From NCBI RefSeq assembly GCF_900142325.1, contig NZ_FRAM01000001.1, positions 620,001 through 684,000 of the forward strand: a DNA stretch of 64,000 nt, given 5' to 3'. A program made the position numbers and the translations under genes. The stretch comes from Epilithonimonas mollis. Lineage in GTDB: Bacteria > Bacteroidota > Bacteroidia > Flavobacteriales > Weeksellaceae. Position 1 is the stretch's first letter, and every line of letters starts with the position of its first letter. The notes under the pieces are model-generated. The model was not told where the DNA came from. It worked only from the letters and a program-made list of their open reading frames with translations, and searched no databases. This document shows positions 823-51,990 of the stretch, in pieces.

Positions 823-929
823 AGCTGTTTCCCGCTATCCGCTATATCTTTTTTGTTTTTAGAATATTTGTATTTCTCAAAGAAAGTGAGGCATAAAAAA
901 CAAAAAAAGAAGCCGCTTCTATCGGGGCT
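823..929 (-). repeat. Dispersed intergenic structured element, copy 1
   Basis: Lies between the HAD gene and serA. The left end reads AGCTGTTTCCCGCTATCCGC then TATATCTTTTTTG. The right end reads CAAAAAAAGAAGCCGC then TTCTATCGGGGCT. The T-run and A-run pair, as do CCCG and CGGG, giving a long hairpin with a variable loop. Related copies occur near 29086, 30246, 46193 and 51886. Read from the upstream (HAD) gene, the element begins with GATAGAAGCGGC and ends with GCGGATAGCGGGAA. Function is unknown; see findings. Confidence 0.75.
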
Positions 930-952
930 ATAGGTTTTATCATCCAATCAAA

Positions 953-981
953 AATTCCCGAAAATAGAAACTTCGGGAATT
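953..981 (-). terminator. Rho-independent terminator of the HAD gene
   Basis: Perfect 10-bp inverted repeat AATTCCCGAA / TTCGGGAATT with a 9-nt loop. On the minus strand it is followed by a T-run. It lies 17 nt after the HAD gene stop. Confidence 0.75.
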
Positions 982-997
982 GAATTTTTAAAATATT

Positions 998-1399
998 TCA
1001 ATCACGGAAAACCTCTATGGTTACTTGTTTTTCAACCATATCCGTGAATTTACCTTTGTATCTTGTTGCTTTTACAAGATGGTTGTCTATCCAGTGGTAG
1101 TTTCCGCCCCTCGGTTTACCAAGCAAAACGCTGTGATACTTGAAACCGTGTTTGTTCAGCCAGGTTTCTGTGATTTCTCGTAAATCTTCTGTTCTGGAAG
1201 TGAAGAAACAAATCTGGTGACCTTCATCATACCATTTATTGATTGTCGCCAAAGCGTCCGGAAATGGCTCACAAGTTACCATTCTTTCCGGTTCTTCATT
1301 AGGAACATCTTCTGTAATCGTTCCATCGATATCGATCAGATAATTCTTGATATCACCTTTCAGCATTGGGCTCAGATGTTCTATATATTCTAATTCCAT
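998..1399 (-). CDS. HAD-superfamily phosphatase-like protein
   Basis: A compact 133-residue HAD-like protein. Motif I is seen as YLIDIDGTI near residue 21-29, with the two Asp nucleophile/acid residues. Motif II is FFTSRT near residue 64-69. The C-terminal GNYHWIDNHLV supplies the late acidic motif, but without the usual DD pair. It lacks a cap domain, as small C0-type phosphatases do. Similar flavobacterial proteins are sometimes labelled phosphoheptose isomerase, which the sequence does not support. Monocistronic, with its own -7 box and terminator. The substrate is unknown. Confidence 0.7.
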   Translation of the reverse strand: MELEYIEHLSPMLKGDIKNYLIDIDGTITEDVPNEEPERMVTCEPFPDALATINKWYDEGHQICFFTSRTEDLREITETWLNKHGFKYHSVLLGKPRGGNYHWIDNHLVKATRYKGKFTDMVEKQVTIEVFRD

Positions 1400-1418
1400 C
1401 AGGTTAAATTTAAGTTGG

Positions 1419-1426
1419 CAAAATTA
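1419..1426 (-). promoter_or_regulatory. -7 promoter box of the HAD gene
   Basis: On the minus strand it reads TAATTTTG, an exact match to the Bacteroidota TAnnTTTG -7 consensus, about 20 nt upstream of the start codon at 1399. No clear -33 element was identified. Confidence 0.5.
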
Positions 1427-1565
1427 CACTTTTATCCTGACCGTAGCAAATCATTATTAAGAGCTTAATAAAATCTTAATTTTAAAGAATATTTTTCAGA
1501 ATTTTATTCTTTTAGATTTATCTAAATAATCTTTCAAATTGATATTTTTAATCCTGATCAAAAAA

Positions 1566-1595
1566 AACAGAGACTTCTTTGCAAAAGTCTCTGTT
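1566..1595 (-). terminator. Terminator of the collagen-like gene unit
   Basis: Perfect 11-bp inverted repeat AACAGAGACTT / AAGTCTCTGTT with an 8-nt loop. It is followed by a T-run on the minus strand. It lies about 57 nt past the stop of the collagen-like gene. Confidence 0.8.
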
Positions 1596-1651
1596 AGTAT
1601 TAATTATTGCAGAAAACAAAAAAACCTGTTTTCTCTGAGTTTTTTATTCAA

Positions 1652-2953
1652 CTAGTTCAGTTTTGTAACAACCATTCTTGAAGAACCATCTGTTGTAAGC
1701 GTATTATTAGAATTATTACTTACTCCCTCAGCAGTTATGACATCTCCCGCAGCACCTTGTACTACCATAGAAATGGAACATCTTGTGGTTGGCGATGGAA
1801 CAAGGCTATTTAACGGTCCACTTCCATATGCAACAGCAACTCCATTTTGTTTGATTGCACCAAATAAAACTGCGGTGTTAACAACTCCAGCCATACTAAC
1901 ATTAATTAAAAACACACCTGCCGACGGTAAAATATAGGTAAATACGCTTGATGGTGTATTAGTAATTGTAACTGAAGAAGTTATGGATTGCGTAGAAACA
2001 ATTGTAGCGCCGCCTCCTCCACTACTTGGCGTAACCCAAGCAGTATTATAATTGCTGGAATCGACTTTTTGCAAAACCTGTCCTGCACTGCCACCAATAG
2101 GGACACCAAATCCGGTAGGACCTGTTGCGCCAGTAACTCCAATACCCTGAGGGCCTTGAACACCAGTTGCGCCAATTGCTCCAGTTACACCCTGTGCACC
2201 TGTAGGACCTGTAGGACCCGTCACACCTTGAATACCCTGAGGACCTTGAACACCAGTCGCGCCAACCGCTCCAATTACACCTTGTGCACCTGTAGGACCT
2301 GTTGCACCCGTCACACCTTGAATACCCTGAGGACCTTGAACACCAGTCACGCCAACCGCTCCAGTTACACCTTGTGAACCTGTAGGGCCTGTTGCACCCG
2401 TCACACCTTGAATACCCTGAGGTCCTTGAACACCAGTCGCGCCAACCGCTCCAGTTACACCTTGTGCACCTGTAGGGCCTGTTGCACCCGTCACACCTTG
2501 AATACCCTGAGGTCCTGTTGCACCCGTTGCACCAGCTGGTCCGGGTGTTGAGCTACCAGAATTCTTGGCATATAAGGCATAAGGTACACTTAGCATTTGA
2601 GACGTTCCCGAGATTACGTAGTTATTCCCGCCACTAGGATCCGTCTCCGTTTTGAAAAAATAAATATCAGAACTCCAATCAATTGTGGCGAATGTACCGC
2701 TCTGTGGTGTTCCACCACCAATTTTGACCGAGACCAACCCGTTGGCATTGGTCTGGGATGTCTGAGTCTCAGCATAAACAACAGTTCCTGTAGCAGAGCC
2801 CTTCAGAATAGAGAACCGAAGTCCCACATTTTGATTTTTCACCAAATCATTGCTTTGATTTCTGATGACCGCCTGATAGCTTATCAGGTCAGAAGTCTGA
2901 GCCATCACAATGGCAGAGGCCAATGTCCCCAAAAGAGTAATGCTTTTTCTCAT
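1652..2953 (-). CDS. Secreted collagen-like Gly-X-Y repeat protein
   Basis: 433 residues. A signal peptide covers about 1-18 (cleavage near VMAQ). An N-terminal domain (about 20-130) of the kind found in many Bacteroidota surface proteins ends [12 protein letters not shown] Gly-X-Y collagen-like segment runs from about 138 to 281, and a C-terminal all-beta domain (about 315-433) looks C1q/jelly-roll-like. The collagen segment is built from a 30-residue unit ([18 protein letters not shown] plus [12 protein letters not shown]) repeated four times and a partial fifth. One triplet lacks a residue (GPQGIGVT). It lies 20 nt downstream of the T9SS-sorted protein at 2974 and probably shares its transcript. 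Likely a trimeric surface or matrix fibre; the function is inference. No T9SS sorting domain is evident in this protein itself. Confidence 0.8.
2126..2515 (-). repeat. 90-bp in-frame tandem repeats in the collagen-like gene
   Basis: Four complete and one partial copy of a 90-bp unit encoding ten Gly-X-Y triplets. Copies differ by a few substitutions (Ala/Ser, Val/Ile, Ala/Pro). Such arrays can change copy number by recombination or slippage, so repeat number may vary among strains. Confidence 0.8.
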
Positions 2954-2973
2954 AATTATAATATGGTTTTAGA

Positions 2974-3453
2974 TTATTTGTCTGTTTTTATAACTTTGAA
3001 AACTTTCAAAGGCTTTCCGCTTCTGATAACCTTCACATAATACAATCCTGCAGGATAGGAGGAAACTCTTAAAACGGTATCACGGGAACTCACTTTACCC
3101 GCCAATATCAATTTATCGGACGAATCATAAATAGAGTAAGTGTATTTGGAATAATCACTAAAATCAACCCTCAGGTTCAGAAAATCCTGAGTGGGATTTG
3201 GAAACACCTTAACATTTAGGCTGATCTCAGAAATATCAATACCAAGAGTCTGTGTGATTTCGTAAGGCTGTTGTACCCCTTGTGACACGCTGACCATCCC
3301 ATTGGAGGGTGTATCCTGAAATGCCTGACCAAGTGAATAAGCAACTGTGCCGGATGATGAGAGTGCTACGCCACCTGATGTATTGAGAGAAGTCTGTGCA
3401 CCAAGAGAACATCCAAATGCCAATAAAGAAAATGTAAAAATTGTAGCTTTCAT
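2974..3453 (-). CDS. T9SS type A sorting domain-containing secreted protein
   Basis: 159 residues. The signal peptide ends near CSLGAQ (residue 20). A short middle region reads ALSSSGTVAYSLGQAFQ. The C-terminal 75 residues form a type A T9SS sorting domain: VFPNPTQDFLNL, then YSIYDSSDKLIL, then PAGLYYVKVIR, ending KVIKTDK. Such domains direct export through the type IX system and removal or anchoring at the cell surface. It precedes the collagen-like gene by 20 nt, which suggests the two surface proteins are made together. No catalytic domain is visible. Confidence 0.85.
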   Translation of the reverse strand: MKATIFTFSLLAFGCSLGAQTSLNTSGGVALSSSGTVAYSLGQAFQDTPSNGMVSVSQGVQQPYEITQTLGIDISEISLNVKVFPNPTQDFLNLRVDFSDYSKYTYSIYDSSDKLILAGKVSSRDTVLRVSSYPAGLYYVKVIRSGKPLKVFKVIKTDK

Positions 3454-3494
3454 AACATATTTATCATATTTAATTATTAGTTTTCAATGATATA

Positions 3495-3502
3495 CAAATA
3501 TA
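3495..3502 (-). promoter_or_regulatory. -7 promoter box for the T9SS/collagen-like gene pair
   Basis: Minus strand reads TATATTTG, matching TAnnTTTG, about 42 nt upstream of the start at 3453. It is the only good -7 match before the two-gene unit. Confidence 0.45.
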
Positions 3503-3574
3503 TATCAATAATTAATAAAATAAATTTTTTATTATGAAAATTTAATTAAAAAATTATACAACAACCTTATCAGT

Positions 3575-4648
3575 CTATTTCTCAGACATCGATTTTAGAT
3601 AGACTCTATTCTGATTAACAGCGGCACAGTCTGGTCTTGACAATGCCGCTTTTTCATTGTATATATTGGCTTTTTTATAATCGCCTAAAAATGAAAGGCA
3701 AACACATGCCTCGATATTTGGGATATAGGTCGAATAATCCGAAAATACAAAACCTATGGAATCCGTTTGTGGCAACCTGGTTGCCAGATCAAACCATCTG
3801 AAAGCCTTGGAATAATCCCGTGTATCTTTATAATAATATCCCAGCTGGCAACAGATTTCCGGTCTTGGGATGTCATATTCAAATGTTTTCAGAAGGACAG
3901 GCAGAATCTTGTCGTCTGCGCCTATCTTTTTATATTCTATAGACAATTGTTGGCAGCTGGCAATGATATCTTCTATCCAACCAAGATTGGACTCCAAAAA
4001 TCGCTCGTAATACAAAATAGCTTTTTCGTTTTCATTATGATCTCTCAGCTCTCTGGCAAAATAATACAATTGACGTGGCGAGAAGTCTTTTCCTGTTTTT
4101 TCCAGAGCTTTGTAAATATCAATATTTCTTGACGACAACTTTTCCCCCTCTTGCTTTCTGTGCCAAATTTCAATTTCTGTGTGGAGCAGATTTCCAATCA
4201 AAGGAATACACTCGTGAACCGGATCTATCCATTGATAGTTCTTACTTTTTTTAAATAATCTCTCCCGAGTAGAATAGTATGAAGGATTCCCGGATTTATC
4301 AAATGACAAAACATATTTCATCGTGACAATCTCAACATCATCATTTAAAGCTTTTTTCAGTTCATTGATTTCCCTAACCGATTTTTCAGGAACTACATCA
4401 TCAGCATCCAGCCACATCTGATAATCCATCGTTGCTTTGGAAAATGCAAAATTACGAGCAGCAGAGAAGTCATTAATCCATTCAAAATCGTAAACATTAT
4501 CCGTGAATAGTTTCGCAATCTCTTTGGTTTTATCCGTAGAACCTGTATCAACGATGATGATTTCGTCAGCAAAATCTCTGGCGCTTTCCAAACATCTTCC
4601 CAAAACTTCTTCTTCATTTTTGACAATGAGGCACAAACTGATTTTCAT
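3575..4648 (-). CDS. Family-2 glycosyltransferase with C-terminal TPR-like region
   Basis: 357 residues. The N-terminal GT-A domain begins MKISLCLIVKNEEEVLGRC and contains IIIVDTGSTDKT (nucleotide-sugar site). A DADD metal-binding motif (MWLDADDVV) lies near residue 80-84. After about residue 190 the protein is helical, with TPR-like spacing (FDLATRLP, ANIYNEKAAL). This matches the inverting glycosyltransferase group that modifies surface glycans or proteins. Donor and acceptor cannot be told from sequence. It stands alone, divergent from the APC permease gene at 4733. Confidence 0.8.
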   Translation of the reverse strand: MKISLCLIVKNEEEVLGRCLESARDFADEIIIVDTGSTDKTKEIAKLFTDNVYDFEWINDFSAARNFAFSKATMDYQMWLDADDVVPEKSVREINELKKALNDDVEIVTMKYVLSFDKSGNPSYYSTRERLFKKSKNYQWIDPVHECIPLIGNLLHTEIEIWHRKQEGEKLSSRNIDIYKALEKTGKDFSPRQLYYFARELRDHNENEKAILYYERFLESNLGWIEDIIASCQQLSIEYKKIGADDKILPVLLKTFEYDIPRPEICCQLGYYYKDTRDYSKAFRWFDLATRLPQTDSIGFVFSDYSTYIPNIEACVCLSFLGDYKKANIYNEKAALSRPDCAAVNQNRVYLKSMSEK

Positions 4649-4708
4649 AAATCCACAACTATTAAATTCTTAGCATAAATATAGAAGTTTTCTTGTCCCG
4701 AATATTAT

Positions 4709-4716
4709 TATATTTG
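4709..4716 (+). promoter_or_regulatory. -7 promoter box of the APC permease gene
   Basis: TATATTTG, a full TAnnTTTG match 17 nt before the ATG at 4733. The leader would be very short. Confidence 0.45.
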
Positions 4717-4732
4717 ATTTTAAATAAAAACT

Positions 4733-6115: not shown

Positions 6116-6185
6116 AGAAGTATTAAAAAAAATATTTTATCTTTAAATCACTTACAAATATTACATAATTATATAATAAATTACA

Positions 6186-6737: not shown

Positions 6738-6762
6738 AAATTTATAATTAGTAAAAATGTTA

Positions 6763-7380: not shown

Positions 7381-7390
7381 TTTTTTTATT

Positions 7391-7413
7391 GTTACCAAAA
7401 TTTGGTAACTTTG
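7391..7413 (+). promoter_or_regulatory. parDE operator palindrome overlapping the -7 box
   Basis: A perfect 19-bp palindrome, GTTACCAAA-A-TTTGGTAAC, at 7391-7409 lies 21 nt before the parD ATG. TAACTTTG at 7406-7413 matches the TAnnTTTG -7 box and overlaps the right arm. Binding of ParD (or ParDE) here would block transcription, the usual autoregulation of this family. The regulatory role is inference. Confidence 0.65.
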
Positions 7414-7430
7414 ATTTAATTAATAATAAA

Positions 7431-21091: not shown

Positions 21092-21256
21092 CCTACAATA
21101 GTTCTAACACAAAGAAGTAAACTCAACAATTAAAAATTACCGGACGAAAGTTCATTTGATGGCGTGCTGCCTTGCGCAGATTACAGAAAATGAAAATAAG
21201 TTCAAATCGTGTTTTTATGGAGTTTACTCTATAACTGAACTGTTGTAGGTTTTTTT
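21092..21256 (+). ncRNA. ssrS: Probable 6S RNA (6S-Flavo type)
   Basis: A long rod-like fold. The outer stem pairs CCTACAATAGTTC (21092-21104) with GAACTGTTGTAGG (21237-21249) over 13 positions. An internal loop is followed by a second stem, GTAAACTC (21117-21124) with GAGTTTAC (21220-21227). Near the middle are the CTGC/GCAG hairpin and a large unpaired bubble, the layout of 6S RNAs that mimic an open promoter. A T-run at 21250-21256 ends it. Position between zapA and rny fits known 6S linkage to zapA. No open reading frame is present. Confidence 0.72.
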
Positions 21257-27601: not shown

Positions 27602-27769
27602 TATTTTTCAAAATACGATTCCCAACAAACATAATACCATAGCTATTAATTGGTTATAAATCAATTAATCAACCATTTTATAAGAAGATATATTATTATA
27701 AATCATTTTGAAATGGACTTCAAAACAGATAAATTTACAGAACAGTTTTTAGCAATCAGCAAGTTGAAA

Positions 27770-29071
27770 ATGGAAAAATTGAAAAAGGTTTTAATTGTTA
27801 CTTATTATTGGCCGCCTGCTGGTGGACCAGGTGTTCAGCGTTGGCTGAAGTTTGCCAAATATCTTCCAGACTTTGGTTTTGCGCCAGTCATTTACACCCC
27901 GGAAAATCCGAGTTATCCCCTGATTGATGAGACTTTGACGAAAGAAGTGCCTGAGAATCTAACGATCTTGAAAACCAAGATCTGGGAACCATATCAGATT
28001 GCAGAAAAATTCAGTAAGAGTAACAAGAAATTCAAAGGCGGACAGTTTGATGTTGGGAAAAACCAGTCCTTTGTTTCAAAGCTTTCTATTTTCATACGAG
28101 GTAATTTTTTCATTCCGGATGCAAGGAAATTTTGGGTAAAACCGTCGATTCAATTTTTAAAACACTATTTGACGGAACATCATATTGATACGATTGTTAC
28201 AACCGGTCCGCCACATAGTCTGCATCTGATCGGACTTGGATTAAAAAAACAATTACCCGACTTAAAATGGATTGCAGATTTCCGTGATCCCTGGACTGAA
28301 ATTTCCTATTATGAACATTTGAAATTAACGACAGCTTCTGACAAAAAACACAGGCAGCTTGAAAAATCCGTTTTTGAAAATGCTGATCTGACGCTGGCTA
28401 CAAGTTATACTGATGCTGAGAATTTTCGAAAAAAAGGAGCGGATGCTTTCTGTGTGACGAATGGATTTGACAAGTCAGAAAGTTTGGGAGAAAATGATGA
28501 GACTCCAAAATCTAAATTTACGTTGAGTTATGTCGGCGTTCTGGAACAACTCAGAAACCCTGAGAATCTATGGAAAGCATTGATTGAATTATGTAAAAAA
28601 TATCCGGATTTTGCTGAGGATTTTCAATTGAAATTTGTGGGAAGAGTGGATGATAAAATCCTGAATGGAATCGAAAATTCTGTTTTGAAAAACAATATCC
28701 TGAATCGAGGTTATCTGGCTCATGAACAATCTGTGAAGGAGATGGCGAATTCTGATTTGTTACTGATTACAAATTTCCCTAATGAAAGTTCTAAAGGAAT
28801 TATTCCCGGAAAATTGTTTGAATACCTGGCGACAGGAAAACAAATTATTTCATTCGGACCAACAGATGCGGATGTGGAAACCATTCTGAATAAAACCAAA
28901 TCCGGAAAACATTTTGATTATACGGAGATTGCACCCATTTCGGATTTTATTTTTTTGCTTTATAAGGATTGGAAAAGTGGAAAATCTATAGAAAATTCTG
29001 CCAACATCAACGAGTTTAGCAGAAAGGAACTGACAAGACAACTTGCCGGACTGTTGACAAAACTTCCTTAA
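27770..29071 (+). CDS. Family-4-like glycosyltransferase
   Basis: 433 residues from the ATG at 27770 (MEKLKKVLIVTYYWPPAGGP). A longer upstream reading adds 40 residues without similarity. The GT-B fold shows YYWPPAGGPGVQRWLKFAKY at the start, DTIVTTGPPHSLHLIG, and near the end a donor-site GIIPGKLFEYLATGKQII. Typical of bacterial exopolysaccharide or glycoprotein pathways. Not clustered with other polysaccharide genes here; substrate unknown. Confidence 0.83.
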   Translation: MEKLKKVLIVTYYWPPAGGPGVQRWLKFAKYLPDFGFAPVIYTPENPSYPLIDETLTKEVPENLTILKTKIWEPYQIAEKFSKSNKKFKGGQFDVGKNQSFVSKLSIFIRGNFFIPDARKFWVKPSIQFLKHYLTEHHIDTIVTTGPPHSLHLIGLGLKKQLPDLKWIADFRDPWTEISYYEHLKLTTASDKKHRQLEKSVFENADLTLATSYTDAENFRKKGADAFCVTNGFDKSESLGENDETPKSKFTLSYVGVLEQLRNPENLWKALIELCKKYPDFAEDFQLKFVGRVDDKILNGIENSVLKNNILNRGYLAHEQSVKEMANSDLLLITNFPNESSKGIIPGKLFEYLATGKQIISFGPTDADVETILNKTKSGKHFDYTEIAPISDFIFLLYKDWKSGKSIENSANINEFSRKELTRQLAGLLTKLP

Positions 29072-29085
29072 CCGTGGAAACTTCT

Positions 29086-29215
29086 GATCTGCGAAGCGCG
29101 TGAGCGATGGTAACGGCTATCCTTTTGTTTGGCTTTGGGAAGATGCCGGCAACAAAAGATAATAGTGGACAGCGCGACCCTGGAAATGGACTTAGCCCGG
29201 GAAGGGTCACGCCCT
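29086..29215 (+). repeat. Dispersed intergenic structured element, copy 2
   Basis: Directly downstream of the glycosyltransferase. It reads GCGATGGTAACGGC then TATCCTTTTG at 29103 on, and ends CAAAAGATAATAGTGGACAG then CGCGACC. CCTTTTG pairs with CAAAAGA. It is extended by a second GC-rich hairpin, AGCGCGACCCT with AGGGTCACGCC. Related to copies 1, 3, 4 and 5; orientation to the upstream gene is the same as copy 1. Confidence 0.75.
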
Positions 29216-29616: not shown

Positions 29617-30231
29617 TTAATGATGGTAAACATCATCATACATCACGCCGGCTTCTATTTTTACCGGCAGCGTATTTTCTTCCGGGACAATCGGGCAGCT
29701 GTAATCGTAAGCATTATAGGCGCAGAATGGCTGATATGACTGATTAAAATCTATCGTGATCTTATCATCCTGCGGAATTCTGAGATCGATATACTTTCCA
29801 CCGCCATAAGTTTCCTTTCCGTTCGTCTCATCTCTGAAGGGAAGAAAAAGATAATCTTCATAACCTGATTTTCCGGAAAGTCTCACATTCTGATAAATCG
29901 TCAGTGTATAGCTTTTTCCATCCAACACAAAAGTTGCCCTTCCAAATTCCAGGTATTTCTGAAACTGTCCTGAGGATGTCGGGAAATCGATTGGTTTTGC
30001 GTCTGTAGTTTTTATAAAATCAGCTATCAGTCTGTATTTCAGATTGACCGGAAAGAAAGGATGCTTTTTAAAATCCTTCAGGTTATTGCCTCGCAAGGGT
30101 GATTCTTTCGGATTAAGATATTCATCATTCAGTTCTTTCTGGAAGTTTTTGATGGCTGCAACAGCTTCATTTTCAGTCTGAGCCGTCATAGACAAAGACA
30201 GCAACAAAAATAGTAATGTTAGTTTTTTCAT
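29617..30231 (-). CDS. DUF1684 family secreted protein
   Basis: 204 residues. The signal peptide ends near LSMTAQ (residue 18). The DUF1684 core is seen in KYRLIADFIKT, YLEFGRATFVLDGKSYTLTI, YLFLPFRDETNG, YGGGKYIDL and NQSYQPFCAYNAYDYSCPIV. The paired Cys near the end may form a disulfide or a metal site. Function unknown across the family. Confidence 0.85.
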   Translation of the reverse strand: MKKLTLLFLLLSLSMTAQTENEAVAAIKNFQKELNDEYLNPKESPLRGNNLKDFKKHPFFPVNLKYRLIADFIKTTDAKPIDFPTSSGQFQKYLEFGRATFVLDGKSYTLTIYQNVRLSGKSGYEDYLFLPFRDETNGKETYGGGKYIDLRIPQDDKITIDFNQSYQPFCAYNAYDYSCPIVPEENTLPVKIEAGVMYDDVYHH

Positions 30232-30245: not shown

Positions 30246-30366
30246 GGGCAGCTATTTCCGTCTTCCACTCCCGCTTTTTTCTGTCATTGCAAACGAACCG
30301 AAACCGTTATTATGCCGTTTCAAGAATCGCAATAACAGCAAAAGAGCTCCGTTCAAGCCGGGCTGC
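30246..30366 (-). repeat. Dispersed intergenic structured element, copy 3
   Basis: Between the AI-2E-type permease (upstream on this strand) and the DUF1684 gene. On the plus strand it begins GGGCAGCTATTTCCGTCTTC then CACTCCCGCTTTTTTCTG and ends GCAAAAGAGCTCCG then TTCAAGCCGGGCTGC. GGGCAGC and the closing GGGCTGC-type end pair imperfectly. Closest to copy 4. Same orientation to the upstream gene as copies 1, 2 and 4. Confidence 0.7.
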
Positions 30367-30396: not shown

Positions 30397-31539
30397 TCAG
30401 ACATCGGAGTCATTTCCTGGATCGGTAATTTTTTCGGTTTTATTTTTTTTAGCCAGAAAATATTTATCAAAAGTGGACTTAAAAATCCGCACCTCATCAT
30501 CTTCCCCCATAAGAAAACCCCAGGACTGGAGTCCCTCTACTCTGTCAAAAATAATTTTAACAATTGCCAGAACAGGAATCGTCAGCAGCATCCCGGCAAT
30601 TCCCCAAAGCATCTCTCCTACAACCAATCCTATAATCACGATCAAAGAATTGATTTTTACTTTTGAGCCGACAACCCTTGGCATGATGATGTTTCCATCA
30701 ATAGCGTGGATAACAACAATGGCAATCACTATGAAAAGAACATGGCTGATCCCCGAAGTAGCAAAAGTAATCAGTGCGCCAATCAGCAATGCCGTGAAAA
30801 TCCCGATATAAGGCAGGATATTCAGAATTCCTGTCAGAATGGCGAGCATAAAGTTATACTTCACACCAATAATCGTATAAGCAATGAAAGACAAAATCGT
30901 CACAATAATCATCTGCAAAAACAATCCAACCAGATATTTTTTTACCATAAACTGGATATTCTCAACAATTTCAAATACGGTTTTATGATGTGCTTCCGTG
31001 AAGCTTGCTACCAGGAATTTCAGAAGATGTGTTCTATATAGCAGGAAAAACAAGGTAAACAAAAATGTGAAACCTGTCAGCATCAATACATAACCAACGG
31101 ATGTCAGCGTTTTTTCTATAATTACAGTTCCTGTGCTGATGGATTTTTTCAAAGTGTCATTCAGATATTCCAGCTGGTCGTGTCTTCTCACACCAAATGT
31201 TTTGGAAATCCAGCTTTGCAGATTGTCTATCAGATCGATAAACTGTTTCTGAAACTGCGGCCAGTCGTTTGCCAGCTTAGCTACTTCTATCGACATCAGA
31301 TAGATGATGCCGCCAATAATCGCCAGCGCCAGCACACTGGCTAAAACGGATGACAATCCTCTCGGAAATTTCATCCTTTTTTCCATAAAACGACAAAGCG
31401 GCATCAGTAAAATAGAAATTAGTAATCCAAGAATCATCGGAACAATAATCTGTTGACCGACAATAGCAAGAAAACCTAAAATAACAACACTGATCAGAAT
31501 GCAGGATAGCTTGAAATAAAAAGGATAAGTCTGATTCAT
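30397..31539 (-). CDS. AI-2E family transporter (PerM-like permease)
   Basis: 380 residues with about eight membrane helices. It begins with FKLSCILISVVILGFLAIVG and has VPMILGLLISILLMPLCRF. The C-terminal half holds the conserved motif SKVKINSLIVIIGLVVGEML and LWGIAGMLLTIPVLAIVKII. This is the YdiK/PerM fold; most members have unproven substrates despite the AI-2E name. The hydrophilic tail ends FDKYFLAKKNKTEKITD. Confidence 0.88.
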   Translation of the reverse strand: MNQTYPFYFKLSCILISVVILGFLAIVGQQIIVPMILGLLISILLMPLCRFMEKRMKFPRGLSSVLASVLALAIIGGIIYLMSIEVAKLANDWPQFQKQFIDLIDNLQSWISKTFGVRRHDQLEYLNDTLKKSISTGTVIIEKTLTSVGYVLMLTGFTFLFTLFFLLYRTHLLKFLVASFTEAHHKTVFEIVENIQFMVKKYLVGLFLQMIIVTILSFIAYTIIGVKYNFMLAILTGILNILPYIGIFTALLIGALITFATSGISHVLFIVIAIVVIHAIDGNIIMPRVVGSKVKINSLIVIIGLVVGEMLWGIAGMLLTIPVLAIVKIIFDRVEGLQSWGFLMGEDDEVRIFKSTFDKYFLAKKNKTEKITDPGNDSDV

Positions 31540-44718: not shown

Positions 44719-44743
44719 CTTTAACAATTTAACTTAATAACAA

Positions 44744-46165
44744 TTACTTCCAGCCTCCGCCTAGTGCACGATAAAGATCAACAATACTGCTGAGTCGCTG
44801 TCTTTTTATCGATGCAAGATTCAGTTCGGCCTGGAGAGAATTTCCTTGTGCAGTAATCACTTCCAGATAATTGACCAATCCGCTTTTATAGAGTTTTTCA
44901 GCACTCTGGATTCCTGATTTTAAAGTATTTACTTGTTCACTTGCTTTTTCTTCCTGAACTTTCAGGCTTTCGTTGGACACCAAGGCATCAGTCACTTCTC
45001 CAACGGCATTCAGAACAGATTGACGAAAAGCCAGAACGTTTTTTTCTCTTTGTATTTTCGCTACATTAAGATTGGTTTTCAATTGTCTTTTCTGAAAAAC
45101 TGGTTGCGTAACGCCGCCTAAAGCAGAACCAAACAACGAAGCGGGAATCTGAAACCAGTTGTCAATTTTGAAAGAATTCACACCACCATTGGCTGTGATT
45201 TTCAATGAAGGATACATATTCGCCTGGGCAATTCCAATCAAAGCATTAGATTCGAGCAAAACCAATTCCTGCTGACGAACATCCGGACGGCGGCTCACCA
45301 TTGCTGCAGGCAATCCTGCTGAGAAATTTTGAGGAAGAGACGTGTCAGACATCTCTAGCGTTCTGCTGATTTTAGTAGGATTCTCCCCTACCAAAATGCT
45401 CAAAGCATTTTCCTGAATTTTAATATTCTGTTCCAGTTGCGTAATCAGAAGTTCTGTATATTCCTTTTGCGCTTTGGATTGCTGAACGCCTAAAGACGTT
45501 GCATCGCCACTTTGCCAGATTTTTTCTGTGATATGAAATGTGTTTTTACTTAATTCTAAATTAGATTTTGCAATTTCCAATTGTTTATCCAGCATCAAAA
45601 GGTTATAGTAGCCTTGTGCAATCGCTGCAACAACTTGGGTTTGAATCGCTTTTGTTGCTTCATAAGTCTGCAGATACTGCATTTTCGAAACTTCCTGCTG
45701 GTTCTTTATTTTTCCCCATATGTCAGCTTCCCAGGACAGATTGAACGCTGCATTGTAATCTTCAACGTAACTTTTTCCAAGGAACAAATTGATGCTTTGG
45801 CCGTTCAGACTGTTATCGGAAGGTCTTGTTATTTGGCCTGTTACGCCAAATCCAACTTCCGGATATTGCATATATTTGGCCTGTTTCAGTCGTTCCTGGG
45901 AAGAGGCGACCTGCTTCAAGGCAATTTGCAAATCATAATTATTTTTGATGCCCTTTTCGATCAGATCTTGCAAGATCGGGTCGTTGAAAAACTGTCTCCA
46001 TTGCAGATTAGCGACGCTCGCTGTGTCAGCTGTTGCCGTATATTGGAATGTTTCCGGCAGTTCCGGGCTCACTTTGTCCAAAGCTAATTTGGGCATACAG
46101 GAAACTGCGCTTGCTACGACTACTGTCGAGACCAGAATCTCTTTTATCTTAGTTATTATATTCAT
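44744..46165 (-). CDS. RND efflux outer-membrane factor lipoprotein (OprM/TolC type)
   Basis: 473 residues. The lipobox is SAVSC (Cys near residue 23). Two OEP repeats follow: QWRQFFNDPILQDLIEKGIK, PSDNSLNGQSINLFLGKSYV, then RRPDVRQQELVLLESNALIG and LYKSGLVNYLEVITAQGNSL. Forms the outer-membrane channel of the efflux complex encoded upstream on the same strand. The intervening 319 bp hold a dispersed element and an inverted repeat. Confidence 0.9.
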   Translation of the reverse strand: MNIITKIKEILVSTVVVASAVSCMPKLALDKVSPELPETFQYTATADTASVANLQWRQFFNDPILQDLIEKGIKNNYDLQIALKQVASSQERLKQAKYMQYPEVGFGVTGQITRPSDNSLNGQSINLFLGKSYVEDYNAAFNLSWEADIWGKIKNQQEVSKMQYLQTYEATKAIQTQVVAAIAQGYYNLLMLDKQLEIAKSNLELSKNTFHITEKIWQSGDATSLGVQQSKAQKEYTELLITQLEQNIKIQENALSILVGENPTKISRTLEMSDTSLPQNFSAGLPAAMVSRRPDVRQQELVLLESNALIGIAQANMYPSLKITANGGVNSFKIDNWFQIPASLFGSALGGVTQPVFQKRQLKTNLNVAKIQREKNVLAFRQSVLNAVGEVTDALVSNESLKVQEEKASEQVNTLKSGIQSAEKLYKSGLVNYLEVITAQGNSLQAELNLASIKRQRLSSIVDLYRALGGGWK

Positions 46166-46192
46166 TTATTTTCCTTTTGTATTTATTAATTT

Positions 46193-46298
46193 GGGCAGCT
46201 TAATCCGCCTTCCGTTCCCAATCTTTTTTGCAGATGATTTCAGTTTAAATAGAACTTGAAGTACAAGCAAAAAAGGATTTCCACTCAAGTCGGGCTGC
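46193..46298 (-). repeat. Dispersed intergenic structured element, copy 4
   Basis: Sits inside the efflux operon between the RND pump and the outer-membrane factor. Plus strand begins GGGCAGCTTAATCCGCC then TTCCGTTCCCAATCTTTTTTG and ends GCAAAAAAGGATTTCC then ACTCAAGTCGGGCTGC. ATCTTTTTTGC pairs with GCAAAAAAGGAT over 11 positions. Closest to copy 3. Confidence 0.75.
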
Positions 46299-46355
46299 GT
46301 GTGATTCGCTGTTCCAAAACAATGTTATTAATTCATATTTTGATATGGTTTTTTA

Positions 46356-46478
46356 GCGCAAAGGCGCAAAAAAATTATCCTCATAAAGCTTCTTCAAGTC
46401 GCAAAATAAAAATCGAAGATTTTAAATCTTTGTGTCTTAAAAACAGAGGTAATTGAAAAAATCTTTGTGCCTTTGCGT
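46356..46478. repeat. Imperfect inverted repeat between efflux genes
   Basis: GCGCAAAGGCGCAAA (46356-46370) pairs with TTTGTGCCTTTGCGT (46464-46478) with two mismatches. ATCTTTGTGTCTT and ATCTTTGTGCCTT repeat within the loop region. Ends 7 nt before the pump gene's 3' end. Confidence 0.5.
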
Positions 46479-46484
46479 TTAAAC

Positions 46485-49400
46485 TTAAATTAAATTCAAA
46501 GCTGCTTTTTCTTTTTTCAGCTTGCGTTTCTTTTTGCTTGGCATTTGCTCGTGCAGATATTGGAAAATCACGTACATCACCGGAATGATGAAAATCCCAA
46601 ACACAACACCCGTAAACATTCCGCCAACCGTACTGATGCCGATAGAATGATTTCCTTTAGCAGCAGCACCTTGCGTCCAAACCAACGGCAACATCCCGAT
46701 AATGAAAGCGAATGATGTCATCAGAATTGGTCTTAATCTCAATCTCGAAGCTTGTAAAGCTGATTCAATCAAAGTTTTCCCTGCTTTTCTTCGCTGAACT
46801 GCGAATTCTACAATCAAAATGGCATTCTTCGCAAGCAATCCAACGAGCATTATCAATCCAACCTGAACATAAATATTATTATCAATCCCTGCCAGTCCTG
46901 TAAAAGCAAACACTCCGAAAATCCCTGTAGGAACCGTTAAAATAACGGCAAAAGGAAGAATGTAACTTTCGTATTGGGCTGCTAACAAAAAGTAAACAAA
47001 CAAAATACTCAAAAGAAAAACGAAAGCCGTTTGTCCGCCTGTTTTGATTTCTTCACGCGTGATTCCTGTCCATTCGTAGCCGTAACCTCTCGGTAATGAT
47101 TGTTTCGCCGTTTCTTCCACTGCTTTAATCGCATCACCTGTACTGTAACCCGGTTTTGGTGTTCCGTTAATGGTAACTGCGTTGAACAGGTTGTTTCTTG
47201 TAACAGTTTCTGGTCCGAAAGTTCTTTTCAAAGTCACCAATGTTTTGACTGGTACCATTTCGTTCTGGTTATTTTTGACATAGATACCATCCAAAGAATT
47301 CGTATCGGTACGATATGGAATATCCGCCTGCGCCATTACCCTGTAGTATTTTCCAAATCTGTTGAAATCCGAAACGAAACTACTTCCGTAATAGATTTGC
47401 ATCGTCTGCATCAGTTCGGTAATTGAAACACCTAACTGGTTGGCTTTATCGGTATCAACATCAATCGTATATTGAGGATTTCCAGCCGCATAAGTCGTGA
47501 AAGCAAAAGCAATCTCGGGACGTTTCATCAGTTCTCCGATGAAAGCCTGAGTTGTTGTTCCCAATTGTTCAAAGGAACCGTTGGTTTTATCCTGAAGCAT
47601 AAACTCAAAACCGGAAACGTTACCAAATCCCTGAACCGTCGGGAAGTTGAAAAAGAACGCATTCGCATCTTTTACCTGGGATACTTTTCCTGTCAAAGCT
47701 GCTGCAATCTGGTCCGGGTCTTTCATATCGCCGCGGTCTTCGTAATCTTTTAACTTGATAAAACCTGCGGAATAGGGCGAAGCATTGGCATTACTGATGA
47801 AATTCAGTCCGTCTGCTACCCAAAGGTGATTGGTCGCATTTTCACCTTTCACGATTTTATCGATTTGTTCCGTTGCCTTATGTGTTCTTTCCAATGAACT
47901 TCCCGGAGGCGTATTCACCGCATACAACACGAAACCTTGGTCTTCCGTCGGGATAAATCCGGTCGGTGCTTTTTGAATCAGGAAAATACTCGCAGCGATG
48001 ATGATTCCCAAACCACCAATTGCAACCCATTTATTCTTAATCAAAAACTTAAGACTATAAATATATTTTCTGGTCATATTGTTGAACGCCACATTAAAAG
48101 CGTTGAAAAATCTCGCTCCAAAACCTTTCTTATGATCATGTTCGCCGTTTTTGCCTTGCGGGTCATTGAGGAACAAAGCACATAAAGCTGGACTTAATGT
48201 CAATGCATTAACTGCAGAAATCATAATGGCAATCGCCAACGTGAACGCAAACTGTCTGTAGAAAACGCCGGCCGGACCTTGCATAAAACCCACCGGAATA
48301 AATACGGCACACATTACCAAAGTAATCGAAATAATAGCGCCTGAAATCTCTGACATAGAACTCACTGTAGCATGTTCCACAGGCATTCCTGTATGTTCCA
48401 TTTTAGAATGAACTGCTTCCACAACGACGATTGCATCATCGACAACAATACCAATAGCCAGAACCAGTGCGAATAGTGTCAACATATTGATACTGAATCC
48501 AAACAGCTGCAGGAAGAAGAATGTTCCGATAATCGCAACAGGAACCGCAATTGCAGGAATCAATGTCGAGCGGAAATCCTGAAGGAAAATAAACACAACA
48601 ATGAAAACGAGGATAAATGCAATTACCAAAGTCTCAACCACCTGATGAATGGACGCATCCAAAAAGTCTTTGGAATTGTACATAATAATCGGTTTCACAC
48701 CTTTCGGCAAAGTTGTTTTGAATTCCTCAACCTGCTTTTCAATTTCTGTTAGGATTTCATTGGCGTTAGAACCTGCAGTTTGAAGAATCGCAAAACCTGA
48801 AACCGGTTTCCCATCAACTCTGTTCGCAGCAGTGTAAGTATAAGAACCAAATTCTACTCTTGCTACATCTTTAAGTCTAAGGAAAGAGCCGTCGTTATTA
48901 GCTTTAATGGCAATGTTTTCGTAGTCTTCATTTTTACTCAGTTTACCTTTATATTTTAGAATGTACTCGTAAGTTTCCTTGCTTCCTTGCCCCAGACGGC
49001 CCGGAGCAGCTTCAAGATTGTGGTCTTTTACAGCATTCAGGACTTCCTGAGGCGAAAGATTGTTCGCCGCCAAACGGTCTGGTTTCAGCCACAGTCTCAT
49101 CGAATAATCTCTTGTTCCGAAAACCTGCGCCTGCGCTACACCCGGAATACGCTGCAACTGTGGAATGATATTGATTTTCATATAGTTCTGCAGGAATAGT
49201 TCATCATATTCTTTTGGGTCTTCACTATACAATCCCATAAACATAATGAAACTATTCTGAACTTTCTGAGTTGAAATCCCCGCCTGGACAACTTCCTGAG
49301 GAAGCTGACTCATCGCTTTGGACACACGGTTCTGAACATTTACCGCAGCGTTGTCCGCATCGGAACCTTGTTTAAAGAATACGCTCAAGGTCATCGTTCC

Positions 49401-49655
49401 GTCGTTACTGGAGTTAGATGTCATATAAGTCATATTCTCAACACCGTTCACGGCTTCCTCAATAGGAACGGCAACTGAACGGGCAACAACTTCTGCATTC
49501 GCACCTGGATAAAATGCCGTTACCTGAACACTTGGAGGCGCAATATCAGGAAACAATGTGATCGGCAGGTTGAACACCGACAATGCTCCCAACAGCAATA
49601 ATATAATGGAGATGACCGTTGAAAGGACCGGTCTTTCTATAAATTGTTTTAACAT
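46485..49655 (-). CDS. RND efflux pump, HAE1/AcrB type
   Basis: 1056 residues and 12 membrane helices with two large periplasmic loops. The opening is MLKQFIERPVLSTVISIILL. The proton relay Asp pair is in LVLAIGIVVDDAIVVVEAV (TM4) and the Lys in LVGLLAKNAILIVEFA (TM10). PGANAEVVARSVAVPIEEAV and the pore-domain segment NAEV match the multidrug HAE1 subfamily. The basic C-terminus is SKKKRKLKKEK. Works with the neighbouring fusion protein and outer-membrane factor. Confidence 0.95.
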   Translation of the reverse strand: MLKQFIERPVLSTVISIILLLLGALSVFNLPITLFPDIAPPSVQVTAFYPGANAEVVARSVAVPIEEAVNGVENMTYMTSNSSNDGTMTLSVFFKQGSDADNAAVNVQNRVSKAMSQLPQEVVQAGISTQKVQNSFIMFMGLYSEDPKEYDELFLQNYMKINIIPQLQRIPGVAQAQVFGTRDYSMRLWLKPDRLAANNLSPQEVLNAVKDHNLEAAPGRLGQGSKETYEYILKYKGKLSKNEDYENIAIKANNDGSFLRLKDVARVEFGSYTYTAANRVDGKPVSGFAILQTAGSNANEILTEIEKQVEEFKTTLPKGVKPIIMYNSKDFLDASIHQVVETLVIAFILVFIVVFIFLQDFRSTLIPAIAVPVAIIGTFFFLQLFGFSINMLTLFALVLAIGIVVDDAIVVVEAVHSKMEHTGMPVEHATVSSMSEISGAIISITLVMCAVFIPVGFMQGPAGVFYRQFAFTLAIAIMISAVNALTLSPALCALFLNDPQGKNGEHDHKKGFGARFFNAFNVAFNNMTRKYIYSLKFLIKNKWVAIGGLGIIIAASIFLIQKAPTGFIPTEDQGFVLYAVNTPPGSSLERTHKATEQIDKIVKGENATNHLWVADGLNFISNANASPYSAGFIKLKDYEDRGDMKDPDQIAAALTGKVSQVKDANAFFFNFPTVQGFGNVSGFEFMLQDKTNGSFEQLGTTTQAFIGELMKRPEIAFAFTTYAAGNPQYTIDVDTDKANQLGVSITELMQTMQIYYGSSFVSDFNRFGKYYRVMAQADIPYRTDTNSLDGIYVKNNQNEMVPVKTLVTLKRTFGPETVTRNNLFNAVTINGTPKPGYSTGDAIKAVEETAKQSLPRGYGYEWTGITREEIKTGGQTAFVFLLSILFVYFLLAAQYESYILPFAVILTVPTGIFGVFAFTGLAGIDNNIYVQVGLIMLVGLLAKNAILIVEFAVQRRKAGKTLIESALQASRLRLRPILMTSFAFIIGMLPLVWTQGAAAKGNHSIGISTVGGMFTGVVFGIFIIPVMYVIFQYLHEQMPSKKKRKLKKEKAALNLI

Positions 49656-49677
49656 ATTAGTTTAATTTTTTGTTGAA

Positions 49678-49755
49678 CCGTTAAACTGTCAATTTGTTAA
49701 ATCGTTATTCGATTCGGCAGTTTAACGGCATTTACAAATCGACGATTAACAAATT
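49678..49755. repeat. Interleaved inverted repeats between fusion-protein and pump genes
   Basis: CCGTTAAACTG (49678-49688) pairs perfectly with CAGTTTAACGG (49718-49728). AATTTGTTAAATCG (49691-49704) pairs with CGATTAACAAATT (49743-49755, one bulge). The two hairpins overlap in order, so they are alternatives or could form a pseudoknot. The second right arm touches the fusion-protein stop codon. Confidence 0.6.
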
Positions 49756-50914
49756 ACAAAGGATTTGCTTTTAACAAGCTGTCAGAAGAAATCGGTTTTG
49801 GTTTGATAAGAACACCATCTTTCAAGTTTCCGATTCCGGTGAATACGATTTTGTCATTTTTATTCAATCCCTCGGAAATAAAGTAATAATGTTCGGTCTT
49901 ACCTGAGATTTTCACAGGTTTTCCGGTTACTTTATTATCTTTTCCAAGAACATAGACATAGGTTTTATCCTGAATTTCGAAAGTCGATTCCTGTGGAATT
50001 ACCACTACATCTGATAATAATTGCGGCATACGGACACGGCCAGTATTTCCTGTTCTCAAAGTTCCGTTTGGATTTGGGAATACTGCACGAACGCTGATTG
50101 CGCCAGTTGTTTTATCGAATTGTCCGTCGATGATACTCATTTTTCCTTTTTCAGAATAATTGCTACCGTCTGCAATGACCAAATCGACTGCAGGCATATT
50201 CCTAAGTTTTTCTTCAAGGGTTGCGCCTGCATATTTCTTTTGAAAAGCAATGAAATCCAATTCGCTCAAAGAAAAGTAAGCATAGATTTGACTGATGTCT
50301 GACAACAAAGTCAAAGGCGTAGGGTCGGTTCTGGAGATGAGGCTTCCTTTCTTATAAGGGATTCTTCCGATATAACCGCTCACGGGAGCTGTAATGGTTG
50401 TAAACCCGACATTGATTTTACTTCCACCCAATGAAGCTTTTGCCTGAGCAGCTGCTGCAACAGCTGCTGCATAATTGGCTTTTGCCGTTTTCAGTTGAAC
50501 ATCGGAAACCACTTTGTCAGCTACCAAAGGCTGAAGTCTGTCGACTTCCACTTTTGCTTTTTGAATGTTTGCGTTGGCAGCCTGAAGATTGGCAGAAGCC
50601 ATATTCATCTGTTCACCATAAACCCTCGGGTCAATTTTGAATAATGGCTGACCGGCTCTTACAAAAGAACCTTCTTCCACATAGATCCTGTCCAGATAAC
50701 CGTCCACCTGTGAACGGATTTCCACATTATTTTTACCTTCCAAAGAAGTTGGAAATTCCTGATAAGTGGTTGCAGGAGAAGTGATAACAGTATAAACAGG
50801 AAGTTCAGGCGTTGGGAAAGCCATTGCCGAATTGTCTGCTGCTTTTGTACAACTTTGTAAAAATATGATACCTGATACCAGTACAATAAGTTTTGAATTG
50901 TTAGTTATTTTCAT
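49754..50914 (-). CDS. RND efflux membrane fusion protein (AcrA type)
   Basis: 386 residues. The lipobox is FLQSC (Cys near residue 22). The lipoyl/barrel-sandwich region is VEIRSQVDGYLDRIYVEEGS and ITAPVSGYIGRI, with an alpha-helical hairpin between them (ANANIQKAKVEVDRLQPLVA). Then beta-barrel TGNTGRVRMPQL. Links the pump and outer-membrane factor. First gene of the operon, 262 bp from the divergent... same-strand TetR gene, with operator palindromes in that gap. Confidence 0.93.
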   Translation of the reverse strand: MKITNNSKLIVLVSGIIFLQSCTKAADNSAMAFPTPELPVYTVITSPATTYQEFPTSLEGKNNVEIRSQVDGYLDRIYVEEGSFVRAGQPLFKIDPRVYGEQMNMASANLQAANANIQKAKVEVDRLQPLVADKVVSDVQLKTAKANYAAAVAAAAQAKASLGGSKINVGFTTITAPVSGYIGRIPYKKGSLISRTDPTPLTLLSDISQIYAYFSLSELDFIAFQKKYAGATLEEKLRNMPAVDLVIADGSNYSEKGKMSIIDGQFDKTTGAISVRAVFPNPNGTLRTGNTGRVRMPQLLSDVVVIPQESTFEIQDKTYVYVLGKDNKVTGKPVKISGKTEHYYFISEGLNKNDKIVFTGIGNLKDGVLIKPKPISSDSLLKANPL

Positions 50915-50979
50915 TTCAAGTTTTTAAGTGTGTTAATTTTTTGTAATAATCTGACTAATTTTTAATGTTGTTAATTTAT

Positions 50980-50992
50980 CTAACGATGTTAG
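50980..50992. promoter_or_regulatory. TetR operator-like palindrome near the efflux operon start
   Basis: CTAACGATGTTAG, one change from the other copies CTAACAGTGTTAG, 66 bp upstream of the fusion-protein start at 50914. Confidence 0.6.
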
Positions 50993-51059
50993 ATTAGAGT
51001 TTACATTGTTTCCATATTTATAAGTTATTTTATAATTAATCCGACCGTCGTTCTTTATT

Positions 51060-51071
51060 CTAACAGTGTTA
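51060..51071. promoter_or_regulatory. TetR operator-like palindrome, second site
   Basis: CTAACAGTGTTA, sharing the TAACAnTGTTA core, in the gap between the regulator and the efflux operon. Confidence 0.6.
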
Positions 51072-51143
51072 ATTAAAAAGAACTACTTATCCAAATATTA
51101 GTTGTTATAATGAAAATAAATAATTAATACTGTGTTAATATTT

Positions 51144-51155
51144 CTAACAGTGTTA
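51144..51155. promoter_or_regulatory. TetR operator-like palindrome, third site
   Basis: CTAACAGTGTTA about 20 bp before the TetR gene 3' end at 51176. A half-match, ACTGTGTTA, lies just before it at 51129. Confidence 0.55.
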
Positions 51156-51175
51156 ATTATAAATTCAAAAAAAAT

Positions 51176-51772
51176 TTACAGCGATTTAATATAAGCTGCA
51201 ACAGTTTCATCAAGCGTTGTCTTGTTCATTGTAGTAGGGATATCATCATTTCGCATCATCATAATTGAAATCAAACCATGAACCGCAGAAAATAAGGCGT
51301 GTGAAGAGTGACAGGCATTATCCGGATTTGACCCTTTTTTAACAATGATATCATAAGTGCAGTCATAGAGTAAATCCTGAAAAGAGGAAAATTCTTCCTT
51401 CATTAAACCCTTTCCACTGCATTGCATTCCCAATCCGAACATCAGCTGATAATACTCCTTATTCTTAAACGCAAAGTTCCAGTAAGCATCTAAAATCGCA
51501 ACAAGCTGCTCTTCCGGACTGTCATTTTTTTTCTGGGCTTTCAATAATTCAATGTGAAGCTGGTGAAAGCCATTCAAAGAAATCTCGAATAGGATTGCCT
51601 CTTTGTTTTCGAAATAATCATAAACTACCGGTGCACTGTATTCGATTGCATCTGCGATCTTCCTGATAGAAAGTGAAGCCCATCCTTCCGTTTTTGCCAA
51701 AGAGAAGGCCGCCTCCAAAATATTGGCGCGTATAGATTCTTTTTCGCGTTGTCTACGTTCGTGTACTCCCAT
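51176..51772 (-). CDS. TetR/AcrR-family transcriptional repressor
   Basis: 198 residues. The N-terminal helix-turn-helix is ILEAAFSLAKTEGWASLSIR with KIADAIEYSAPVVYDYFENK. The C-terminal ligand domain includes AILDAYWNFAFKNKEYYQLM. It lies upstream of the efflux operon on the same strand. Palindromes with the same core sit before both, so it most likely represses its own gene and the pump. Ligand unknown. Confidence 0.9.
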   Translation of the reverse strand: MGVHERRQREKESIRANILEAAFSLAKTEGWASLSIRKIADAIEYSAPVVYDYFENKEAILFEISLNGFHQLHIELLKAQKKNDSPEEQLVAILDAYWNFAFKNKEYYQLMFGLGMQCSGKGLMKEEFSSFQDLLYDCTYDIIVKKGSNPDNACHSSHALFSAVHGLISIMMMRNDDIPTTMNKTTLDETVAAYIKSL

Positions 51773-51781
51773 TATTAATTC

Positions 51782-51802
51782 CTAACAGTGTTAGCAAAAA
51801 TA
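51782..51802 (-). promoter_or_regulatory. tetR promoter: operator abutting the -7 box
   Basis: CTAACAGTGTTAG (51782-51794), a perfect palindrome 10 nt from the regulator's ATG. TATTTTTG on the minus strand (51795-51802), a TAnnTTTG -7 box, touches it. Repressor bound here would block its own promoter. Confidence 0.65.
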
Positions 51803-51885
51803 TAACATTTAATTTTAATGGACAAAAAAACTAATCGATTTTATAAATGACTAAGGTATTATATTATATATTATCCATAAGTACC

Positions 51886-51990
51886 TAGCCCCGATGGAAG
51901 CGGCATCCTTTTTCATTGCCATAGCCTACGTTTAATACTAAACTAACTTCGCAATGAAAAAAGATACAGCGGACAGCGGGAAATAGCTTC
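51886..51990 (+). repeat. Dispersed intergenic structured element, copy 5
   Basis: Between hemB and the TetR gene. Reads CCCCGATGGAAGCGGCATCC then TTTTTCATTGCC, and ends GCAATGAAAAAAGATA then CAGCGGACAGCGGGAAATAG. CTTTTTCATTGC pairs with GCAATGAAAAAAG over nearly the whole arm. Opposite orientation to the hemB gene, unlike the other four copies. Confidence 0.8.

Follow-up and report, generated by a model that had tools for sequence, protein, structure and literature searches.

Five Copies of One Element in the Window

The stretch of DNA considered here (the window) comprises 64,000 nucleotides of Epilithonimonas mollis (NCBI RefSeq assembly GCF_900142325.1, contig NZ_FRAM01000001.1, positions 620,001 to 684,000 of the forward strand) and harbors five copies of a short hairpin-forming element, all of which sit between genes called by our own open reading frame (ORF) caller. 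The five copies, referred to below by their initially assigned start positions where these are needed (i.e., 823, 30246, 46193, and 51886), are members of a somewhat broadened Flavo-1 family (Rfam RF01705). The family itself is already known from Rfam. An initial annotation, made from the letters of the window alone, had grouped the five as a single intergenic family, and this grouping is confirmed by R1, a covariance model that recovers all five copies, each with E ≤ 1.2e-10 (Table 1). For R1, 60 of 63 fetched copies from the same genome were aligned and given a 14-pair structure modelled on that of Rfam; the training set includes the copies at 823 and 51886 and excludes the other three window copies. 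Three of the five reach the Rfam gathering threshold of 42 bits. The copy at 46193 is just under it, and that at 30246, which the Rfam model does not match at E ≤ 5, is detected only by R1, a model built from other copies.

Table 1. Flavo-1-type elements in the window, with bit scores under R1 and the Rfam model
Feature	Position	Strand	R1 (bits)	Rfam	Context
Flavo-1-type hairpin, arm class I, long loop	818..939	-	82.5	65.4 bits	Behind minus-strand gene 998-1399
Flavo-1-type element, arm class III (outer stem GCG/CGC)	29090..29189	+	54.1	49.3 bits	Behind gene 27650-29071; loop still recognizable in the relative G037
Flavo-1-type element, diverged arm class II, long loop	30244..30375	-	44.1	No match at E ≤ 5	Between 29617-30231 and 30397-31539, both minus-strand genes
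Flavo-1-type element, arm class II, long loop	46191..46307	-	72.8	46198-46300, 40.5 bits (below gathering, 42)	Gap between RND permease gene 46485-49655 and outer-membrane efflux gene 44744-46165
Flavo-1-type element, arm class I	51877..51993	+	77.6	68.5 bits	Directly behind, and antisense to, minus-strand hemB 51995-52981 (named by NCBIfam NF006762)

Hairpin Anatomy and Covariation

From the outside in, the hairpin consists of an outer stem, a variable pair, two 3x3 internal loops separated by two covarying pairs, a short AT-rich stem, and then an inner stem with a T-rich 5′ arm and an A-rich 3′ arm, closed by a loop of mostly 15–60 bases. The outer stem is CCCG/CGGG in class I and GGG/CCC or GCG/CGC at the same place in class III, and the pair next to it can be A-T, T-A, G-C, or C-G. 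Both internal loops are purine-rich and stay unpaired while the surrounding helices covary. By class consensus over 137 copies, the foot of the element reads TAGCCCC or GCAGCCC, with class III having no such foot. Several class II copies of the E. mollis genome (for example, L053, L054, and L064) carry a repeat-like string with GGAATGACAAA about 25–35 bases upstream.

In the 60-copy alignment, 94.4% of 840 cells are paired, and 11 of the 14 pairs have changed on both sides. The compensatory pairing that the initial annotation had read in the arms is thus present as covariation, with a score of 0.516; shuffled alignments average 0.208, and 0 of 500 attain the observed value. Pairing falls to 43–62% when the 3′ partner is shifted by one to three columns, although this control is tilted toward the structure, which was itself derived from the family. 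The ends of the variable loop also pair within a copy, at 3.57 of six positions compared with a mean of 2.18 for swapped ends (maximum over 2000 swaps, 2.50; the set comprises 131 different loops, each 16 bases or longer).

Loop Replacement at Matched Sites

About 1.68 Mb of the relative G037 was compared with the E. mollis genome. The flanks of 66 E. mollis copies were placed by blastn, with both flanks found at 33 sites. The element, taken as an R1 match between or beside the flanks, is kept at 21 of these, in the same orientation and, as judged by eye, with the same arm class at all 21. The remaining 12 sites are without an R1 match in G037, and some of them may hold decayed copies. The median identity at matched sites is 83% for the flanks, 0.92 for the arms, and 0.43 for the loops. 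When ranked by identity among 72 G037 loops, the matching loop is at a median position of 34th and in the top three at 6 of the 21 sites, while the arms have a median rank of 4 and are in the top three at 10. At 6 of 21 sites, loop identity is higher than in 95% of non-matching pairs. The matching loops rank mid-list and the arms near the top, indicating that the majority of loops have given way to others and that a smaller number persist. A simpler comparison, in which the best paralogous loop exceeds the matched loop at 18 of 21 sites, was set aside in favor of the rank test because it pits the best of many against one and is biased.

Changes are not confined to the loop. In the seven outer pairs, both sides have changed at 8 of the 21 sites (15 pairs), and one side has changed in 10 pairs, five of which belong to two damaged copies. 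Between species, site and orientation are thus kept while the loop, and sometimes pairs on both arms, are replaced; loop replacement at kept sites is apparently new. The incoming loops are drawn from within the family: at L018, the G037 loop is identical to that of another G037 copy, and the one at L047 is identical both to another G037 copy's and to that of L061 in E. mollis. The loops had been described as unrelated between copies, which is true within the window but not elsewhere, where identical or nearly identical loops recur, also under different arms (L008 and L066).

At the lengths listed, alignment with the equivalent region of five relatives is confined to window positions 44720-51848, around the RND efflux genes; the remaining parts of the window are found at other locations in those relatives. 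Hence, window-based site matching gave the 46193 site alone. At this site, G111 has the same arms with another loop, and G008 has an element in the opposite orientation. No R1 match is found there in G054, G037, or G144, and G054 holds what appears by eye to be a reduced form.

In the G037 copy matched to L028 and in the G054 stretch matched to 46193, the inner part of the loop contains strings that resemble other repetitive extragenic palindromic (REP) sequences, as would be seen had another kind of repeat inserted into the hairpin. At the L051 site on G037 contig C1 (L213, about 9.6-9.9 kb), inserted DNA interrupts both arms of the element.

The Strand That Folds

The mismatches in the arms distinguish the two strands. 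Across 158 copies from the E. mollis genome, four relatives, and named flavobacteria, the non-Watson–Crick cells of the seven outer pairs comprise 25 G-T/T-G, 1 A-C/C-A, and 12 other combinations. These copies are drawn from 171 alignment rows, with the dropped rows being repeats or having more than two gapped cells and none being dropped for poor pairing. The imbalance between G-T and A-C has a p value of 8e-7, or of 0.001 (14 versus 1) once matches scoring less than about 45 bits, which were picked by hand and contribute 11 G-T cells, are removed; both p values are too small, as the copies are related by descent. R1 itself may favor G-T slightly. Because a G-T on the sense strand would read as A-C on the other, the strand whose pairing is kept is the sense strand of Rfam, an assignment that is apparently new. 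Mutation has no matching lean, with 60 changes of the C>T and A>G type and 75 of the G>A and T>C type in conserved columns, paired and unpaired together.

The sense strand also has the lower folding energy in 130 of 137 copies with DNA parameters and in 118 of 137 with RNA parameters. Read as RNA, the G-U share amounts to 2.3% of about 1106 cells, compared with 8.0% of 276 pairs in 23 distinct tRNAs taken from the fetched loci (where A-C occurs 3 times). This low share leans weakly to DNA over RNA.

Orientation Relative to Genes and Replication

In the gaps between tandem genes, the antisense-to-sense ratio is 32:13 in E. mollis, 26:13 in G037 (p 0.05 alone), and 39:15 in G008. When the three genomes are pooled, 97 of 138 copies are antisense and 41 sense (p 2e-6), with sites shared by descent and the genomes not independent. 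Gene orientation was taken from our ORF caller, whose calls are approximate, and two duplicate matches of overlapping loci were dropped. The initial annotation had found four of five copies sense to the gene ending just upstream and had proposed an action on the 3′ end of that transcript. The former describes the window but does not extend to a rule, and the latter is rejected on the 97:41 antisense count. An intrinsic terminator is likewise rejected: whichever strand is read, the T run lies on the 5′ inner arm, inside the hairpin and not directly after it (by reading; no terminator program was run), and the orientation is mostly antisense.

The direction of replication is a second correlate. 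In G008, a complete genome, the strand of the 135 copies shifts along the chromosome. With an origin placed approximately, between 2.25 and 3.24 Mb, by the strands of the rRNA genes, the sense strand is head-on to the fork in 88–98 of 135 copies (origins 2.5 to 3.2 Mb). In G132, 59–71 of 96 rows, the strongest listed among 150 matches, are head-on depending on the assumed origin. In a logistic test on the 84 of 135 G008 copies with context, the p values are 4e-4 to 0.02 for replication and 0.002 to 0.008 for genes, each given the other; replication and gene direction both contribute to orientation in G008. The antisense, head-on placement of the sense strand is apparently new.

Copy Number and Distribution

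The E. mollis genome has at least 89 R1 matches (150 of 3577 candidates scored), corresponding to about 1 per 41 kb genome-wide versus 1 per 13 kb in the window. The covariance search that the initial annotation had called for thus finds far more than the five copies, whereas its estimate of a few hundred genome-wide is too high for this genome. The Rfam model gives 65 matches, 47 of them over its cut-off (150 of 1010 candidates scored). Two further R1 matches, L058:3-93 (-) and L021:2358-2438 (+), the latter weak at 20.8 bits, lie beside known copies and are absent from the Rfam list. Among relatives, R1 matches number 135 in G008, 129 in G037, 97 in G068, and at least 150 in G132 (150 of 150 scored). 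Copies per genome are about 90–150 or more in the five counted genomes of the genus, in counts that depend on R1 and its training on the E. mollis genome.

In a survey with the Rfam model in which up to 22 candidates were scored per genome, Flavo-1 matches at E ≤ 0.001 occur in 172 of 197 sampled genomes of the bacterial family, including 23 of 23 in the genus. R1 copies are also present among 80 hemB loci of other genera, with records from Flavobacterium, Mesonia, and Mariniflexile included. A conserved position by hemB was rejected, as the copies at these loci stand at varied places; L154 has one directly behind hemB, and six Chryseobacterium loci (L117-L121 and L142) have none there. Three of 68 copies in E. 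mollis and one of 72 in G037 lie inside called genes, and the rest are extragenic. No match at E 0.001 was found in plasmid and phage collections by blastn with one natural copy (L014) as the query.

A separate RNA-like feature of the window is a match to 6S-Flavo RNA at positions 21121-21225 (+). The match is below gathering (53.4 versus 85 bits; E 1.1e-5) and is possibly a diverged 6S RNA.

Candidate Mobilizing Proteins

REP sequences moved by a REP-associated tyrosine transposase (RAYT) were among the candidates of the initial annotation. PF01797 matches are found in 143 of 197 genomes of the bacterial family. None of 30 PF01797 loci, taken as each genome's best locus with about 1.5 kb on either side, has an R1 match at E ≤ 1; these loci are a subset of all PF01797 matches, one from each of 30 genomes, and carry no RAYT subclass assignment. 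The three PF01797 genes of E. mollis have no Flavo-1 nearby (surrounding 19 kb and 9 kb stretches). A RAYT encoded beside the element is not supported by these loci. The REP-like anatomy and the genome-wide repetition are supported. Two genomes of the same genus, G037 and G127, are without a PF01797 match, yet 22 of 22 scored candidates are Flavo-1 in each. In G190, 15 PF01797 matches fall partly into equal-score groups (6 and 6), suggesting a recent IS200-like expansion.

No target-site duplication was seen by eye in the flank consensus and the listed copies, no exact empty site was resolved, and no transposase was identified.

A Single-Stranded DNA Hairpin or an RNA

With a confidence that is evenly balanced, Flavo-1 is proposed to be a scattered single-strand DNA hairpin repeat resembling a REP doublet forming hairpin (REPIN), with a loop that is exchanged between copies. 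Its working form would be single-stranded DNA and not RNA, and the element would be a non-autonomous REPIN-like repeat. Such a repeat fits the anatomy and the dispersal. It is hypothesized that a structure-reading protein (other than a RAYT beside the element), or the enzymes of host replication and repair, copy hairpins between dispersed sites. Arm homology would place the incoming strand, and the unlike inner hairpin would be exchanged. The sense strand would tend to finish up within the lagging strand, as expected if a short single-stranded piece anneals at the fork. Alternatively, copies in the other orientation may have been lost; the orientation bias would follow from either route. A stronger and rather doubtful version of the proposal is that Flavo-1 copies are not RNA genes but form a cassette-like single-stranded DNA system, in which the outer arms stay fixed over species divergence and the inner hairpin is repeatedly swapped among dispersed copies via a sense-strand DNA intermediate incorporated on the lagging strand, with the help of a putative structure-specific, non-RAYT protein. 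The interpretation of the initial annotation is retained in part: a single intergenic, repetitive, REP-like family with selected pairing remains, without the 3′-end action or the adjacent RAYT.

Several observations weigh against a DNA repeat with an exchangeable loop. No mobilizer, excision product, or target duplication was found, and arms of about 25–30 bases are short for RecA recombination. The matched sites rest on a single relative, in which the element at L016 differs in its spacing from the flanks, standing nearer the other flank, and the copies at L017 and L051 are damaged. The replication effect in G008 is weakest (88–91 of 135) with an origin at 3.2 Mb, the one favored by coarse GC skew and gene strands. 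In G068, 31–42 of 54 copies (the strongest listed of 97) are head-on depending on the origin, with p 0.34 at one end, so the effect is not significant across the whole range. In addition, the sense strand is found on the template of the leading strand, and this template is less exposed than that of the lagging strand; simple folding of an exposed template thus leaves the bias unexplained. Lastly, one-strand folding and tolerance of G-T would also be expected of RNA, and the scarcity of G-U argues only weakly against RNA.

The published record places Flavo-1 among RNAs. In the sections of the 2010 report that concern it, the family is rated a probable RNA that is probably without a cis-regulatory role (PMC2864571), and a review of small RNAs, in the portion that lists it, carries it as an RNA of unknown function (PMC9029176). 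The transcriptome study of F. psychrophilum describes, in its passages on the family, Flavo-1 copies as lying indistinctly sense or antisense to transcribed regions, with many in none (PMC9723704). Among the papers listed in searches of the open-license PMC literature, none was recognized as describing an exchange of Flavo-1 loops, an orientation of the family to replication, or a role for it as DNA.

A genuine structured RNA, as in Rfam, would be transcribed from the sense strand, often antisense to its neighbors, with a protein reading the arms and the loop left free. This is the alternative that survives best, although it is unlikely. Folding of one strand, tolerance of G-U with purging of A-C, and covarying arms are what such an RNA would display, and the family is listed in print as a probable RNA. 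Nonetheless, the antisense bias leaves the sense strand outside read-through mRNA, the Flavo-1 passages of the F. psychrophilum study report no consistent transcript, and the G-U share is low. Replacement of whole loops from other copies and the replication bias are also left unexplained. Thus, of the three features to be accounted for (i.e., the structure of one strand is kept, that strand is usually not mRNA-like, and the loop is replaceable from a pool), the first follows from a structured RNA, whereas the second and third are not easily explained by it.

Selfish or neutral palindromes that ordinary replication and repair keep alike, with loops and arms copied by hairpin-induced breaks or by template switching at imperfect palindromes and no dedicated protein involved, are a less probable alternative still. 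They would account for pair changes on both sides that accompany loop replacement and for loops common to several copies. In the prevailing orientation, moreover, the strand that folds better is neither the lagging-strand template nor the non-template strand of genes. However, free template switching would mend the internal loops to perfect pairs, yet these stay unpaired amid covarying helices, and the rarity of A-C relative to G-T in the face of a mutational spectrum with no matching lean argues for selection on one strand.

It is highly improbable that the element is a REPIN mobilized by a RAYT located at another place in the genome or by a RAYT that has disappeared: the REPIN layout set out in the relevant part of PMC3116915 is common to Flavo-1, subclass 2.6 RAYTs are said in an excerpt of PMC6006769 to be flanked by atypical structures, and PF01797 matches are widespread in the bacterial family, but no copy lies near the 30 family loci (in which subclass 2.6 may be under-represented) or the three E. 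mollis loci, and G037 and G127 have many copies without a PF01797 match.

If Flavo-1 is a replication-oriented DNA hairpin, it should not count as a small RNA. The family would then provide a natural setting in which to follow how dispersed copies exchange sequence at a defined position. Comparison of loops at matched sites and counts of G-T versus A-C are applicable to other orphan RNA families, as a means of telling RNAs from single-strand DNA elements.

Relation to Known Systems

Flavo-1 as defined by Rfam is the same family in sequence and structure, with a covarying consensus structure on the sense strand and a model that three of the five window copies pass. It differs in that two window copies fall below or outside the model and in that the evidence points to a DNA-level element with a replaceable loop rather than a noncoding RNA gene.

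REPINs, as characterized in the pertinent part of PMC3116915, have conserved ends that pair into a hairpin, a less conserved spacer, compensatory changes, and dispersed extragenic copies. The subclass 2.6 RAYTs of Bacteroidetes are said, in the section of PMC6006769 devoted to them, to have flanking structures that are atypical and also occur as copies in other places, and their REPs to be without a GT[AG]G foot. The likeness of Flavo-1 to REPIN and REP-RAYT systems (PMC3116915, PMC6006769, and PMC8266576, in the parts that describe the repeats) lies in dispersed extragenic inverted arms that fold single-stranded, a less conserved spacer, compensatory changes, and a high copy number. In contrast to REP-RAYT systems, Flavo-1 flanks no tested RAYT gene and has the feet TAGCCCC/GCAGCCC in place of GT[AG]G. 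In contrast to REPINs, it harbors two conserved internal loops, and its loop is replaced at fixed sites.

In integron attC sites, too, a single strand folds, the arms are conserved, some features are unpaired, and the terminal part varies. Flavo-1 copies differ from these in standing singly in ordinary gaps, and no cassette array was observed, although no search was made for an integrase or for attC boxes. Miniature inverted-repeat transposable elements are, like Flavo-1, short, noncoding, and dispersed, with terminal inverted arms. In Flavo-1, no target duplication was seen by eye and no related transposase was found, and the arms keep specific mismatched internal loops.

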